Shown here one piece after another: positions 29,464 through 35,366 of a stretch of 64,000 bases of DNA. Below the pieces are notes generated by a model. It searched no databases. It was not told the origin of the DNA and was given only the letters and a program-made list of their open reading frames with translations. This DNA comes from Methylomusa anaerophila (GTDB lineage: Bacteria; Bacillota; Negativicutes; Sporomusales; Sporomusaceae). The stretch is taken from the NCBI RefSeq assembly GCF_003966895.1, contig NZ_AP018449.1, forward strand, positions 3,675,501 to 3,739,500. The letters are read 5' to 3'. Numbering within the stretch: position 1 is the first letter of the stretch; every line of letters begins with the position of its first letter. The position numbers and the translations under genes were made by a program.

Positions 29464-31089
29464 TCAACGGATAACCCTGCTCCAGTTTGCGTTGATAATT
29501 TGGGCCATTAATTTTTTTCCCTCAATGTCCAGGTGTAAGCCATCGATGGCAAAATGGTCCGGCAGTTCGCCGCCGGCATCCGTGAAGAACGGTTCCAGCT
29601 CAATATAATATTGCTGGGCGCGGATGAATTGATTAACCGCGGCAAATTCTTTCTGCCAGTCGGGAACTGTCTCTTCCTGGAAAACCTCATGGATGGCAGT
29701 TGGGTTGATCGGGGGCAAAGTCAAGAAAATTGGCCTGATGCCGTTGACCAAACAATTGTCGCGAATCGCGGCCAGCTCATCGATCACCTGTCTGGCAGGA
29801 GTACCGCCGCGCAGACTGTTCGTTCCGCCGAGTATTAGCAGGAATTTTGGTTTAAACGGCAATACATCCCGGTCGAAACGGTCTAGCATGGTCTCGGAAG
29901 TATCACCGCTTTTGCCTAAATTAACGGCCGGAAAATAGAGATATGTTTGGTAACTATAGTCGCAATCGGCCGGGGAATAGGAAATGGCGCCTCCCCCATG
30001 CGTGATGCTGTCGCCAAAGGTTGCCGCATAATTTCCCCGGGAGAGATCAACAGTAAATTCGGCGATGTCGGAATAAACCCCGACGGGGTTGCCGTCATTA
30101 TCAATTCCCCTGACTCGCCAGTAATACCTTCCCGGGATAATGCGCGGCTCTTCATCATAACAATCAAATGCGCCGGCGACTTCAGCGCTCCATAGCCGGT
30201 AGCGTGAAGGATCAATGCCATTGGGGTTTTCCGGTGGCTGGCTCAGCAGCTCAACTTCATGGCGCGCGGCTCCTTGAACAGGTATCCAGGAATAGGCAGG
30301 ATAAAGCGGCGGCGGGACGTTTTTTCTTTGATGCTGGTTTAGCAGTGGTTTTAGAGGCATTTGCAGGGAATGGTCGATAAATACTTCTGCCGCATCGGAA
30401 AAGACTCCAATGGGGTTGCCTTTATTATTGAGAGCTCTTACTCGCCAGAATAAATGGTTTCCTTCGTACCAGCTCAAATCAGCATTATAGCCGTTAGTAA
30501 ATACTTCCCGGGTAATCTTTAATTGATGCCGCCTGGACGGCTTTATTCCATTGGGGTTTTCCGGAAATGCGCTTAATAGTTCTAATTCATAATAGACTGC
30601 TCCCGGAACCACTGTCCAGGTAAACATGGGCTGGGAAGATGCCGGGAGATTGTAAGGATAATGAATGGTGGGCACTGGTTTTATTCTGTCAAATGTCGGC
30701 AGTTCTTGTCCGGTGTGATCTTCGAACTTAAGCGTGTCGGAGCAGCGCCCGAGAGGATGATGAAACAGACTATGCGCTGAGACCCGCCAAAAGGTATGAA
30801 AAGGAAAATTTTGTTTAATAACAAGGCGGGTGTCTAACGTTCTGTATTTGGTTATAATCTGACCTGTCCCGTTTATATCCTCCCTGGGAGGAGCGCTAAA
30901 GACTTCCACTTCGTAGTAAACCGGATACGGTAGGCGTGACCAGCTCAAAATATACTCGTTGGCAACGGTATTTATAGTAAGCAACGGCTTAAATTGATTT
31001 AAACCGAACCAATCGATCGCCTCAACCGCATACAGTAAAGCTGCAAGTAATACCAAGGCCATTAGCAGGCGTTTCAAAGTAAATAACAC
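29464..31089 (-). CDS. Secreted or membrane-anchored SGNH/GDSL hydrolase with repeated beta domains
   Basis: 541 residues. An uncleaved or cleaved hydrophobic N-terminus (LLMALVLLAALLYAVEA) is followed by three similar beta-sandwich-like repeats of about 105 residues, each with a WxxVxGAxYYEVELLS-type core, PPENPNGI and a YWRVRxxxxxGNPxGVYSD segment. The C-terminal about 190 residues are an SGNH esterase: block I FGDSITHG (nucleophile Ser), GGTNSLRG (Asn oxyanion) and DGLHLD (Asp-His). Likely acts on surface polysaccharide or peptidoglycan esters. Substrate unknown. Upstream are two small hairpins, one like the hydG terminator. Confidence 0.87.
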   Translation of the reverse strand: MLFTLKRLLMALVLLAALLYAVEAIDWFGLNQFKPLLTINTVANEYILSWSRLPYPVYYEVEVFSAPPREDINGTGQIITKYRTLDTRLVIKQNFPFHTFWRVSAHSLFHHPLGRCSDTLKFEDHTGQELPTFDRIKPVPTIHYPYNLPASSQPMFTWTVVPGAVYYELELLSAFPENPNGIKPSRRHQLKITREVFTNGYNADLSWYEGNHLFWRVRALNNKGNPIGVFSDAAEVFIDHSLQMPLKPLLNQHQRKNVPPPLYPAYSWIPVQGAARHEVELLSQPPENPNGIDPSRYRLWSAEVAGAFDCYDEEPRIIPGRYYWRVRGIDNDGNPVGVYSDIAEFTVDLSRGNYAATFGDSITHGGGAISYSPADCDYSYQTYLYFPAVNLGKSGDTSETMLDRFDRDVLPFKPKFLLILGGTNSLRGGTPARQVIDELAAIRDNCLVNGIRPIFLTLPPINPTAIHEVFQEETVPDWQKEFAAVNQFIRAQQYYIELEPFFTDAGGELPDHFAIDGLHLDIEGKKLMAQIINANWSRVIR

Positions 31090-31350: not shown

Positions 31351-32736
31351 TTATGAAACACTGCTTACCGTATCGGGTACAACAAGCGAAGACCAGGCAG
31401 GCTGTGTTGATAGATCTTTGGGAAAGCTAAAAGAGAAAGTGGCTCCCTTATCAACCTGTCCTGTCAGCCAGGCTTTGCCATGGTGTCTTTGCAATATCTT
31501 TTGACATATTGCAAGTCCCACACCATGTCCTTCAAATTCCTCATTGGTATGGAGTCTTTCAAAAATGCCAAAAAGCCTGGCAGAATCCTTCATATCAAAA
31601 CCGGCGCCGTTGTCTTTTACGGAAATAATATAATTGTTTCCGGCTTCTTCCATAGCGGCTTCAATAATTGCCGGTTCCCGGTCCCGGGTAAATTTAAGTG
31701 CATTGGAAAGAATGTTGCGTACAAGCAGCTTTATCATTACCAGGTCGCCATGAATAGCAGGAAGCTGCTTCAACTTAAACTCCACCTGCCTTTCCGGCTG
31801 AAGTCTCATTAATTCTTCGTAAACTTCCCGAAACAATGGTTCCAATTGAATGGCTTCCATTTGCATCTGTTTCTGGGACATTCTGGCCAGTTCAAGTAAA
31901 TAATCAGTAATTTTAATGAGTTCTGCTGATTTATTTTGAATATACCGGGTTAATTTATTCCCATTGCTATCAAGCTTATCTGCGTAGTCCCGGATAAGAA
32001 AGCCGGCAAGCTGGTTGATCGAAAGCAACGGGCCTTTGAGATCATGGGCCACTGAATGACAAAAGTTGTTCAGCTCCCGGTTGACTTGCTGGAGACTTTC
32101 AAAATGTTCTTCTTTAGTAATTAAATCCGCTCTCGTTTTTTCGAAATACACCATTAACGTACCAGAAGCAATGAATAAACGTAATATTCCACCGATGAAG
32201 CTAAGTAACTGAAAATGATTGCTGAAAAGAAAAAAGGGGGTTATGAAAGTTAAAAGGCACCAAAGAAAAAAAGAACCGCCGGTAATATACTTTCCTACCC
32301 CGCGTGTTTTAATATTTATAAATGTTTTGGCAATATATAGGAGCCCAATGCAAGAAAACCAGGCGGGAAAGGCAATTTTGTAAGCTATTGGTAATTGAAT
32401 TATAGAGGATGACGTTACACTTAGAATAACAGTCAACGCAGCGCCGTATAACCAGTAAATTTTATAAGGTTTATTGATAAATATGTAAAGAGCATAAATA
32501 TATATCATGAGACAGGTAAGATACAGTGTTTGAAAGATGACAGTGCCCAATATTGAATGTTCCCAGTCAAAAAATTTAAGATCAAAAAAAATAACTCTGG
32601 AAAAAAAGAGAATCCAGCTTATAACCCACAGACCCATAAAGCGTTCACGATAAAGAAAATAAAGATAGACATACATTAGTATTACTGAAAGCGTACCTAC
32701 TATTGCACCGAATATCGATAGCTGAAAATAATCCAT
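31351..32736 (-). CDS. Membrane sensor histidine kinase
   Basis: 461 residues, AAGGAGA site before the ATG. The N-terminal about 210 residues hold seven or so hydrophobic helices with almost no extracytoplasmic domain, so the signal is probably sensed in or at the membrane. Then an H-box SVAHDLKGPLLSINQLAGFL (dimerisation and phospho-His), N-box LLVRNILSNALKF, G1 VKDNGAGFD and G2 GHGVGLAICQKIL. The sensor is a multi-helix type like those for lipophilic or peptide signals; I do not recognise its named family. Its likely partner regulator is divergent at 34302. Confidence 0.88.
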   Translation of the reverse strand: MDYFQLSIFGAIVGTLSVILMYVYLYFLYRERFMGLWVISWILFFSRVIFFDLKFFDWEHSILGTVIFQTLYLTCLMIYIYALYIFINKPYKIYWLYGAALTVILSVTSSSIIQLPIAYKIAFPAWFSCIGLLYIAKTFINIKTRGVGKYITGGSFFLWCLLTFITPFFLFSNHFQLLSFIGGILRLFIASGTLMVYFEKTRADLITKEEHFESLQQVNRELNNFCHSVAHDLKGPLLSINQLAGFLIRDYADKLDSNGNKLTRYIQNKSAELIKITDYLLELARMSQKQMQMEAIQLEPLFREVYEELMRLQPERQVEFKLKQLPAIHGDLVMIKLLVRNILSNALKFTRDREPAIIEAAMEEAGNNYIISVKDNGAGFDMKDSARLFGIFERLHTNEEFEGHGVGLAICQKILQRHHGKAWLTGQVDKGATFSFSFPKDLSTQPAWSSLVVPDTVSSVS

Positions 32737-32889
32737 TTGTTGATGTCTCCTTCATAAAAATACTTATCTATAATATAAGGAGAATTACCTTAATATTAAC
32801 AATATTAACGAATTATATTATAACAAACGTTGGCATTTGTGGAAAGAAATTCATGCTAAATGAAGCAATTTCATTAATAAACAATTAAC

Positions 32890-32926
32890 AAAAAAAGGAC
32901 TAACCTAAAAATAATTAAGCCAGTCC
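32890..32926 (-). terminator. Intrinsic terminator of the acyltransferase-cNMP gene
   Basis: On the minus strand an 11-bp stem including G-U pairs (GGACTGGCTTA with TAGGTTAGTCC) is followed by a run of T. It implies that the histidine kinase downstream is transcribed separately. Confidence 0.82.
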
Positions 32927-32959
32927 ATATTTGTTGTTGATATTATTTTCGGGTAGTTT

Positions 32960-34126
32960 CTACCCTATTACATATAATGAATAATTTTGCTTGTGTAAAT
33001 TATTGAGTATCTTACGAGCAATATTAGGATGGCGTTTTCTGAAATTGCTAAAATAATGAAACGATAAGACTAAAATATCTGAATCATCTATAGCTATGTA
33101 ACTTGAGGAATGTATTGTTCGTTTAACTAAACCACTCTCTCCAAAATGTTGTCCCAGTGATATCCTTTCAGCCGAGTACGATTCTACTTTTTCTACCTTT
33201 CCTGATAATAATACATTAAGTTCCTGACTGGCATTACCGCCTGCTGTGATAAAATCACCTGTATGGCAATGAACAATACTACCACAGCAATGTAAAAACA
33301 GTTTTGCTTCTAAAATAGATAATTCTTCCAGTATAGGTATAATGTGATGTGGCATGTCACCCAGGTAATGACAAATAATAGACCATAGCTCGTCCACAGC
33401 AATGAGTTGACTATTAACGGTTGTTCTTATTTCGCAAGCAAATTCCGAATTAAACCAATTGACTACTTCTTGCTTTAATGATGTTCTTTTACGAGCAATA
33501 CGGAAGAAAGGAGAGCGAACTGTCTGTAGATGTTGAACATCATCTACCAACATAACAAGACTGGCCATTGGGCCAATGTTAGGATCTATGATATTTTTAT
33601 CGATGCGGCGACTTCCGTAATGCTCGTGTAGTGGAATTAAATGAAAATTGCAATTGACGAAGGAAAACTGTATTTGGTAGTCACAACATAGTTTATAACC
33701 CTCTGCCATTAATAGGTAAAATGCTGGTGAACTACGGTATTGTGGAACTACCATACCTTTGGAAATCACTGCAAAATAAGGGTCAACCTTTTTGTCATAA
33801 AATTTTCTAAATCTATCCATACGGTATGTTTCTACCAAATCGGGAGGAAAATCCGAAAGTTTGCCAATATTGATCCTTCCTGTGCCGATAATTTTCGACC
33901 CAACTTTCGCATAGAAGAGCATGGCCTTTTCATCCAACTCATCCTGTAAAAATTTGTTGGCATGATCAGCAGCCGCAAGTTTAAAGGCTATTTCCTCAGC
34001 ATAAATTTGATACCGAAGACGGTAGATTTCTCTTTTTTCCTTGTCCGTTGTTGCCTTACTGATTATTATTTCTTCCTTTGGGGGCACAGCTGGGGACGGG
34101 AATACTACTGGAGCAATTTTTTCCAT
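32960..34126 (-). CDS. LuxI/FeeM-like N-acyltransferase fused to a cyclic-nucleotide-binding domain
   Basis: 388 residues, GAGGAGAAG site before ATG. Residues about 20-210 resemble autoinducer synthase/FeeM-type GNAT proteins: YRLRYQIYAEEI, DELDEKAMLFYAKVGSKIIGTGRI, and VISKGMVVPQYR. Residues about 265-385 resemble a cNMP-binding domain: GDFITAGGNASQELNVLLSGKV and LGQHFGESGLVKRT. In the phosphate-binding cassette the Arg-Ser/Thr pair of CRP is not evident (His-Ser at that place), so ligand binding may be altered. It could make an N-acyl amino acid or acyl-lactone-like signal or lipid under cyclic-nucleotide control, or acylate a protein. Flanked by a membrane kinase and an AraC-type response regulator. 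Confidence 0.75.
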   Translation of the reverse strand: MEKIAPVVFPSPAVPPKEEIIISKATTDKEKREIYRLRYQIYAEEIAFKLAAADHANKFLQDELDEKAMLFYAKVGSKIIGTGRINIGKLSDFPPDLVETYRMDRFRKFYDKKVDPYFAVISKGMVVPQYRSSPAFYLLMAEGYKLCCDYQIQFSFVNCNFHLIPLHEHYGSRRIDKNIIDPNIGPMASLVMLVDDVQHLQTVRSPFFRIARKRTSLKQEVVNWFNSEFACEIRTTVNSQLIAVDELWSIICHYLGDMPHHIIPILEELSILEAKLFLHCCGSIVHCHTGDFITAGGNASQELNVLLSGKVEKVESYSAERISLGQHFGESGLVKRTIHSSSYIAIDDSDILVLSFHYFSNFRKRHPNIARKILNNLHKQNYSLYVIG

Positions 34127-34301
34127 AAAATCACTTCTCCTCTACATAATATTGGGAAAATGTTATTTTCCATTACGTTCATAATACAATATCTGTAGAA
34201 ATATGAAATATTTTGTCCGGTTGAATGATAAAAGTGTTAGACTTGAAAAACCCCGGAATTGGTTAAAACACAAAAAATAAGTTAAACCGGAGGAAATCTG
34301 C

Positions 34302-35366
34302 ATGTATAAGGTATTGATCGTTGATGATGACGAGACGGTAAGGTATGTGCTTAGGCAATTGCAAGGGTGGAAACTATCCGGGTTTACGGTTGAAGATGAA
34401 GCTGGGAACGGTAAAGAGGCTTTAATAAAATTAGCGGCAAAAAACTTTGATTTGGTGATTACCGATATTAGAATGCCTGGTATGGACGGGCTCAGACTGG
34501 TAAGTGAAATTAAGGCGAAAAACTTAGATGCTTGTTTGATATTGCTCAGTACATTTAATGATTTTGAATATGCGCAGCAAGGCATCCGTCTTGGGGTATT
34601 TGACTATATGATCAAACCGGTGGGGGATGATGCCTTAATGGAAGCTTTGGAACGGGTTAAGAGGCATTTGAATGAAAAAAGGCTGCAGGAAGATAACCTG
34701 GAATTTTATTACCCCGAGAGCCAGGAAGTAAAGCTCACTGATTTAGTGCTGGCAGGCAGCCGTGAAGCCATGGATGTGGCAACAAGTATTTGTTTGGAAA
34801 TATTTAATTTGACAGATGGAAACCTGGTTAAGACGGGTATACTGCTGGAAAAAATGATCTTAAATTTAAGTAATGGAATGTATAAGGTTTTCCCCTATTT
34901 AGAAGCCTTTGAAAAGCCGGCTTTTAACGGTATTTTCATTAACACGGAATCTTTGGCGAAAGTGAATGGAAAGTTTTTAAGTTGTATCAAAATCATGCTG
35001 GAAATTATAAAAAAATATGAACTGCACCACGCGGACAGTGTAGTGAAAAAAATATGCACCTATGTAATGACCCATGTGGAAGAAGATATCAAATTAGACG
35101 ATATTGCTAAAGAAATATATATCAGCGGCGGTTATATCAGTAAACTGTTTAAAGAGAAAACGGGCAGCAATTTTAATGATTATGTGACAAAAGTAAAAAT
35201 GGAACATGCTAAATATCTTTTGGGGACAGGTAAGTATAAAAACTATGAAATAAGCGATAAACTTGCATACAGCAGTCCGGACTACTTTTGCCGCCTATTT
35301 AAAGACTATACGGGATATACACCGTTTGATTTTAAAAAATTGAGGGAAAAAACATATAACATATAA
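34302..35366 (+). CDS. Response regulator with AraC-type DNA-binding domain (YesN-like)
   Basis: 354 residues, GGAGG site before the ATG. Receiver domain at residues 1-120: VLIVDDDE acidic pocket, phospho-acceptor Asp in LVITDIRMPGMDGL, Ser/Thr in LLSTFNDFEYA, Lys in YMIKPV. Then a central about 120-residue helical region without known motif, and two C-terminal helix-turn-helix units: IKLDDIAKEIYISGGYISKLFKEKTG and YEISDKLAYSSPDYFCRLFKDYTGYTP. Divergent from the FeeM-like gene with 175 bases between, so it may regulate that promoter. Confidence 0.9.
   Translation: MYKVLIVDDDETVRYVLRQLQGWKLSGFTVEDEAGNGKEALIKLAAKNFDLVITDIRMPGMDGLRLVSEIKAKNLDACLILLSTFNDFEYAQQGIRLGVFDYMIKPVGDDALMEALERVKRHLNEKRLQEDNLEFYYPESQEVKLTDLVLAGSREAMDVATSICLEIFNLTDGNLVKTGILLEKMILNLSNGMYKVFPYLEAFEKPAFNGIFINTESLAKVNGKFLSCIKIMLEIIKKYELHHADSVVKKICTYVMTHVEEDIKLDDIAKEIYISGGYISKLFKEKTGSNFNDYVTKVKMEHAKYLLGTGKYKNYEISDKLAYSSPDYFCRLFKDYTGYTPFDFKKLREKTYNI

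Follow-up and report, generated by a model that had tools for sequence, protein, structure and literature searches.

A LuxI/FeeM-clan GNAT domain fused to a cyclic-nucleotide-binding-type domain and its conserved seven-helix kinase partner in Methylomusa anaerophila and related Negativicutes

In a 64,000-nucleotide stretch of the genome of Methylomusa anaerophila (Sporomusaceae, Negativicutes; contig NZ_AP018449.1, positions 3,675,501-3,739,500), referred to here as the window, a gene for an acyltransferase-like fusion protein, the synthase, lies beside a gene for a histidine kinase with a membrane-embedded sensor. The synthase and the sensor form a real, conserved and apparently undescribed pair. 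We assign a probability of roughly 0.55 to the reading that the fusion protein makes an acyl-amide signal that is sensed by the linked kinase. The initial annotation of this DNA had placed the system in a Firmicute, which is correct in that the host belongs to the Bacillota and can be refined to an outer-membrane, spore-forming Negativicute. The three open reading frames (ORFs) that it described, encoding the kinase, the fusion protein and a response regulator, are all present, and are laid out as follows, with domain positions given in amino acids (aa) and with GNAT and cNMP (cyclic nucleoside monophosphate) denoting the two domains of the fusion.

31351-32736, minus strand: kinase gene (ORF of 461 aa)
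32101..32736, minus strand: histidine kinase sensor of seven membrane helices (aa 1-212), which tracks the synthase in evolution
31414..32100, minus strand: kinase core of HisKA and HATPase_c, with H231 and the specificity residues LSQLGF; it has been exchanged in comparison with the orphan PAS-type kinases described below
32960..34126, minus strand: complete GNAT-cNMP fusion gene, the synthase (ORF of 388 aa), one of four such paralogues in the genome
33482..34078, minus strand: LuxI/FeeM-clan GNAT domain, acyl-amide synthase-like (aa 17-215 of the fusion protein)
32972..33349, minus strand: C-terminal cyclic-nucleotide-binding-type, CRP-like domain (aa 260-385)
33092..33154, minus strand: degenerate phosphate-binding cassette GQHFGESGLVKRTIHSSSYIA, with His in place of the canonical Arg
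34302..35366, plus strand: response regulator with a receiver and an AraC-type helix-turn-helix domain (354 aa), intact and divergent from the synthase

A survey of 100 related genomes yielded 82 synthases, with full-length homologues in 44 of the genomes. A seven-helix kinase lies within 3.5 kb of 81 of the 82, on the same strand in 77, the lone unpaired synthase being matched only in part, in an assembly that is fragmented. This near-obligate pairing spans about 25 genera and several gene orders, with otherwise varied flanking genes. Sensor and synthase are also inherited together. Distances between synthases correlate with those between sensors at r=0.80 (Mantel test; 0 of 2000 permutations reached this value and none exceeded 0.30), compared with r=0.28 for the kinase cores over all 42 pairs. 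The latter value is low because the subtype found in the window carries a different, exchanged core; given the core, the partial correlation of synthase and sensor is 0.78. In the commonest arrangement, here called the orphan type, a kinase with a PAS domain and no adjacent regulator is followed after about 200 bp by the synthase, and within this type alone the synthase correlates with the sensor at 0.81 and with the core at 0.80. Maximum-likelihood (ML) trees of synthase and sensor have most clades in common. The sensor thus stayed with the synthase when the output module changed. Retention of the pair for chromosomal reasons only, without functional coupling, would fit genes that are close together and vertically inherited, and in the orphan type the core follows the synthase no less closely than the sensor; such an explanation is nevertheless highly improbable in view of a linkage that persists over so many genera despite varied flanks and gene orders, and of a subtype in which the core was replaced and the sensor kept. 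No published description of the pair was found in the open-access literature, and a survey of LuxI in Gram-positive bacteria does not name the Negativicutes (PMC5539150).

The sensor, which had been described as almost purely membrane helices, indeed comprises seven helices joined by very short loops, with HisKA and HATPase directly after; Arg residues in the membrane part are conserved (R47 and R186 in the window kinase). No Pfam family is matched by more than one of 43 members, and among the matches listed for a Foldseek search with the kinase there are only kinase cores. Of 397 further genomes from the phylum, about 23 carry the sensor domain as well, and 22 seven-helix kinases without a nearby synthase occur among the related genomes, including one in M. 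anaerophila. Because it is found in other Bacillota without the synthase, the sensor must predate the pair or be more widespread than it, and is not exclusive to the circuit. At those loci (L166-L185) it heads long kinases of up to about 1050 aa, with no synthase nearby. The solo kinases L161-L165 include a window-type kinase accompanied by a divergent AraC regulator and no synthase (L163:2374-5249); the existence of such receptor solos counts in favour of the signalling reading.

In the window subtype, the five loci of which form one clade of the ML synthase tree (support 100), the kinase core has been replaced and a dedicated AraC-type regulator added. The kinases of this subtype have no PAS domain and carry the specificity residues LSQLxx or QSKLxx, and the divergent regulator, with its receiver and AraC-type domains, is conserved in all five loci. 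The initial annotation had proposed that the three genes could form a synthase-receptor-regulator circuit, and had named a neighbourhood not conserved in relatives as evidence to the contrary; the neighbourhood is in fact conserved. What holds generally is the clan of the synthase and its pairing with the kinase; the three-gene form with AraC is restricted to this one clade, so that the regulator is a minority form, and the sensor also occurs without the synthase. In the window subtype the kinase would signal to its dedicated, divergently encoded regulator.

In the 388-aa protein a cNMP-type domain comes after a LuxI/FeeM-clan GNAT domain, and the assignment of the latter is firm at the level of the family. 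Residues 37-140 match PF13444 (Acetyltransf_5) at 29.1 bits (cut-off 22.4), and residues 33-186 match the FeeM family PF21926 at 19.6 bits, which for the window sequence alone is under the cut-off of 27; sampled relatives match PF13444 in 33/33 cases and PF21926 in 32/33 (best E 2.6e-14). R38, Y39, D65, R131 and D196 are invariant or nearly so across phyla. Structure prediction, one of the checks proposed at the outset, gave an AlphaFold2 model with a mean predicted local distance difference test score of 91.4 (alignment of 35 relatives), for which FeeM ranks first against the PDB in both Foldseek and VIA-align (Z 18.1, 170 residues, 2.2 Å). In VIA-align other GNATs score up to Z 16.7, and the LuxI-type synthases TofI, LasI and BjaI about 15. 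When 33 GNAT domains from a wide range of phyla are combined in a profile, the best PDB sequence match is the autoinducer synthase BjaI (E 2.5e-6), with RLR, D, R and S-[KR] aligned between the two; this match came with the GNAT-only profile, and the PDB matches listed for the whole-protein profile are cNMP domains only. Profile and fold thus agree in placing the N-terminal domain, as had been supposed, inside the autoinducer/FeeM clan and not outside it. FeeM, a long-chain N-acyl amino acid synthase (PDB 2g0b), gives the closest structural match to the GNAT domain along its full length, but lacks a cNMP domain and is not known to be linked to a sensor kinase. LuxI-type systems differ in that their receptor is LuxR, whereas here it would be a membrane kinase, and none of the sampled family members matches the LuxI family PF00765 (Autoind_synth) at E 0.01; Trp and Glu, further LuxI signature residues, appear not to be conserved. 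There is also a weak partial match of the N-terminal region to TIGR03694, the PEP-CTERM/exosortase-associated acyltransferase family (29.8 bits against a cut-off of 112), which is reported to be linked to N-acyl amino acid synthases.

Sequence and structure establish which domains are present, the pairing and joint inheritance of synthase and sensor, the core exchange with gain of the regulator, and the loss of the cNMP Arg; from there we infer the chemistry, the ligand, its secretion, the targets of the regulator and the connection to sporulation. As a LuxI/FeeM-clan N-acyltransferase, the fusion protein would use acyl-acyl carrier protein or acyl-coenzyme A to make a small acyl amide, in all likelihood an N-acyl amino acid or a compound like it; the product may partition into the membrane, where the linked kinase would sense it through the seven-helix sensor. 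The GNAT domain might instead make a structural or stress aminolipid resembling ornithine lipids, with the kinase monitoring the state of the membrane lipids and not a diffusible signal. Acetyltransf_5 includes the OlsB-type ornithine acyltransferases, NCBIfam returns weak partial matches to OlsB and exosort_acyl, the sensor is almost purely transmembrane, and homologous sensors exist without a synthase. We nonetheless consider this unlikely, since a single genome can hold as many as four divergent synthase-sensor pairs, in parallel specificity groups, an arrangement that private signals fit better than a bulk lipid does; furthermore, no conserved O-acyltransferase stood out among the neighbouring genes, which were not exhaustively annotated.

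The C-terminal domain of the fusion matches cNMP_binding (PF00027) over residues 286-366 at 27.4 bits (cut-off 27.5), and the corresponding part of the model matches cyclic-nucleotide-binding domains at Z about 15. Pfam and the model therefore bear out a CRP-like domain in the reverse of the order seen in the mycobacterial cAMP-controlled lysine acetyltransferase (KATmt/Pat). The suspicion that its phosphate-binding cassette is altered was well founded: Glu is kept and His stands at the Arg position, so that the domain in the window lacks the combination of Glu and Arg that characterizes cAMP-binding CRP-type domains. Across the family, the cassette Arg is found in 1/42 members inside the Negativicutes clade and in 28/33 outside it, and the Glu in 13/42 and 30/33, respectively. 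No class III cyclase was found in the M. anaerophila genome, other cyclase classes not having been searched. With Arg lost inside the clade and mostly kept outside, and with no such cyclase found, classical cAMP control of the fusion is unlikely in Negativicutes and plausible for its homologues in other phyla. Rather than bind cyclic nucleotides in the classical manner, the domain may be structural or bind another ligand.

GNAT-cNMP fusions also occur in Alphaproteobacteria, Cyanobacteria, Myxococcota, Spirochaetota, Chloroflexota and others, and at the loci examined outside the Negativicutes none has a seven-helix kinase beside it. At several of these loci the GNAT or GNAT-cNMP gene adjoins one for a haem-oxygenase-like enzyme or an S-adenosylmethionine (SAM)-dependent methyltransferase (L113, L116 and L120 in cyanobacteria, L119, L153, L110, L114, L132 and L115), the methyltransferase being fused to the GNAT gene product in L115. 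Within the Negativicutes, a B12-binding radical SAM enzyme often follows the common orphan form: it is encoded directly after the synthase in 13/41 loci, usually overlapping or adjoining it; it is about 585 aa long, occurs at L036, L042, L048, L054, L069, L073 and others of L034-L073, and weakly resembles methyltransferase-type and lipid-biosynthesis radical SAM enzymes in NCBIfam. Linkage to these three kinds of enzyme favours the biosynthesis of a small molecule over protein acylation. The GNAT-cNMP protein would, on the latter account, modify the kinase or other proteins as KATmt does. KATmt likewise unites cNMP-binding and GNAT domains in one protein, one homologue of the synthase has a weak NCBIfam match to mycobacterial Pat, and pairing with co-inheritance would be expected of an enzyme and its substrate too. 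Small-molecule-type tailoring enzymes apart, the GNAT domain belongs to a different clan from that of KATmt/Pat, the domain order is reversed and the cassette is degenerate, with the phosphate Arg lost in the clade, and we regard protein acylation as rather improbable.

The orphan type suggests a connection between acyl-amide signalling and sporulation. Its kinases carry the specificity residues TTGYQ[LVMIFY], plus one TSGFQL, to be compared with TTGFQ[LMF] in the Spo0 kinases of D. acetoxidans and TAGFQL in KinA; orphan status and a PAS domain have been used as predictors of Spo0 kinases (PMC6136694). The orphan PAS-type paralogues resemble the Firmicute Spo0 kinases (KinA-E, Dtox_1918; PMC6136694) in orphan status, PAS domain and TTGYQ-type residues of the phosphorelay kind, which are not exclusive to Spo0 kinases, whereas the window kinase has no PAS domain, carries LSQLGF and lies beside its own regulator. 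Spo0A is present in 42/44 synthase genomes, the two exceptions being incomplete assemblies. In the orphan PAS-type copies the kinase would probably feed the Spo0 (sporulation) pathway.

The sporulation link is suggestive only, and several observations weigh against it or against the signalling reading as a whole. AtoS and ZraS have TTGYQ-like specificity residues, so the match is not exclusive, and AtoS, together with KinD and ZraS, is among the best NCBIfam matches of the orphan kinases. Fourteen Spo0A-positive genomes have no synthase, and the association of synthase with Spo0A (Fisher p 1e-13) is not corrected for phylogeny. Spo0A boxes show no enrichment near the genes, with 1/33 in each region. 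In other Bacillota, no synthase lies near the sensor domain at the 20 loci fetched. Finally, the enzyme might also be a modifier and the kinase its substrate.

Translation of the synthase may be regulated at the orphan-type sister loci, to which, and not to the window locus, the following applies. In 23/33 orphan-type leaders an ORF of 1-5 codons comes after a strong Shine-Dalgarno sequence, about 60 nucleotides (nt) before the synthase, and is reduced to start-stop in four; shuffles average 1.5 such cases (maximum 6), and 4/88 control leaders have one. The conserved leader RNA is seen at L050:8002-8112, L046:7592-7702 and L044:9595-9707, along with 22 more loci, with mini-ORFs of 1-4 codons such as MKT-stop and start-stop. 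The idea that the mini-ORF is a signal peptide gene was dropped because its codons vary and some loci have start-stop only. Single-sequence folds of many Sporomusa and Pelosinus leaders give a three-way junction in which the Shine-Dalgarno sequence of the synthase is paired with an upstream CUCUCC, the mini-ORF being placed in the stem adjacent to this pairing. A covariance model built from 17 leaders found 34 matches in 30/100 genomes, almost always directly before a synthase gene, with two clear outliers that are weak. A weak match away from any synthase (L154, G092:C1:1027423-1027519; two genomes, 32.9 bits) lies near adenylosuccinate-synthetase-like and transporter-like genes and is possibly due to chance. 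On a structure-fitted alignment the leaders show covariation, with 11 double-change pairs against 4.2 (0/500 shuffles), and an arm-exchange test gives weak covariation (p 0.009); on a plain MAFFT alignment covariation is not above that of shuffles, and RNAalifold finds almost no structure in a wider leader set. Neither the leaders nor the window loci match an Rfam family.

The window locus itself has two further sequence features.

32897..32926, minus strand: terminator-like stem with a T tail, between the synthase and kinase genes
34155..34171, no strand assigned: perfect inverted repeat GGAAAAT-gtt-ATTTTCC, a short way upstream of the ribosome-binding site of the synthase

Because of the stem between them, synthase and kinase are probably separate transcription units here. 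A longer version of the inverted repeat occupies the equivalent place in the paralogue L034 (8769-8796). Adjoining the kinase is a gene for a GDSL lipase/acylhydrolase of 541 aa (29464-31089, minus strand), which has no relative at the other loci and is thus probably unrelated to the system.

Signalling by acyl amides from LuxI-clan synthases is a trait characteristic of Gram-negative bacteria. A comparable arrangement, in which the gene for an autoinducer synthase lies with that for a membrane sensor kinase of several helices, is familiar from CqsA/CqsS, LqsA/LqsS and LuxM/LuxN, although these differ in synthase family, host group and phosphorelay partners. To our knowledge, few sporulation signals have been described in Negativicutes, and the spore-forming relatives of Sporomusa are not known for LuxI-clan signalling. 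A tentative and more speculative extension, for which we would not claim even odds, is that several parallel, private acyl-amide signals, each with a LuxI/FeeM-like synthase and its own seven-helix kinase, gate sporulation through Spo0 in the spore-forming Negativicutes; the window branch would have been rewired to an AraC regulator by exchange of the core only, and in the orphan branch a leader RNA carrying the mini-ORF would control translation of the synthase by masking its ribosome-binding site. The pair, of which a genome may have as many as four copies and which is nearly confined to Spo0A-positive members of the class, adds a membrane sensor domain that belongs to no Pfam family, and a natural case of a sensor retained while its output module was replaced. 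For diderm Firmicutes it offers a candidate, open to direct testing, for signalling between cells or by lipids, and the pairing points to an undescribed, self-made signal in the spore-forming relatives of Sporomusa.

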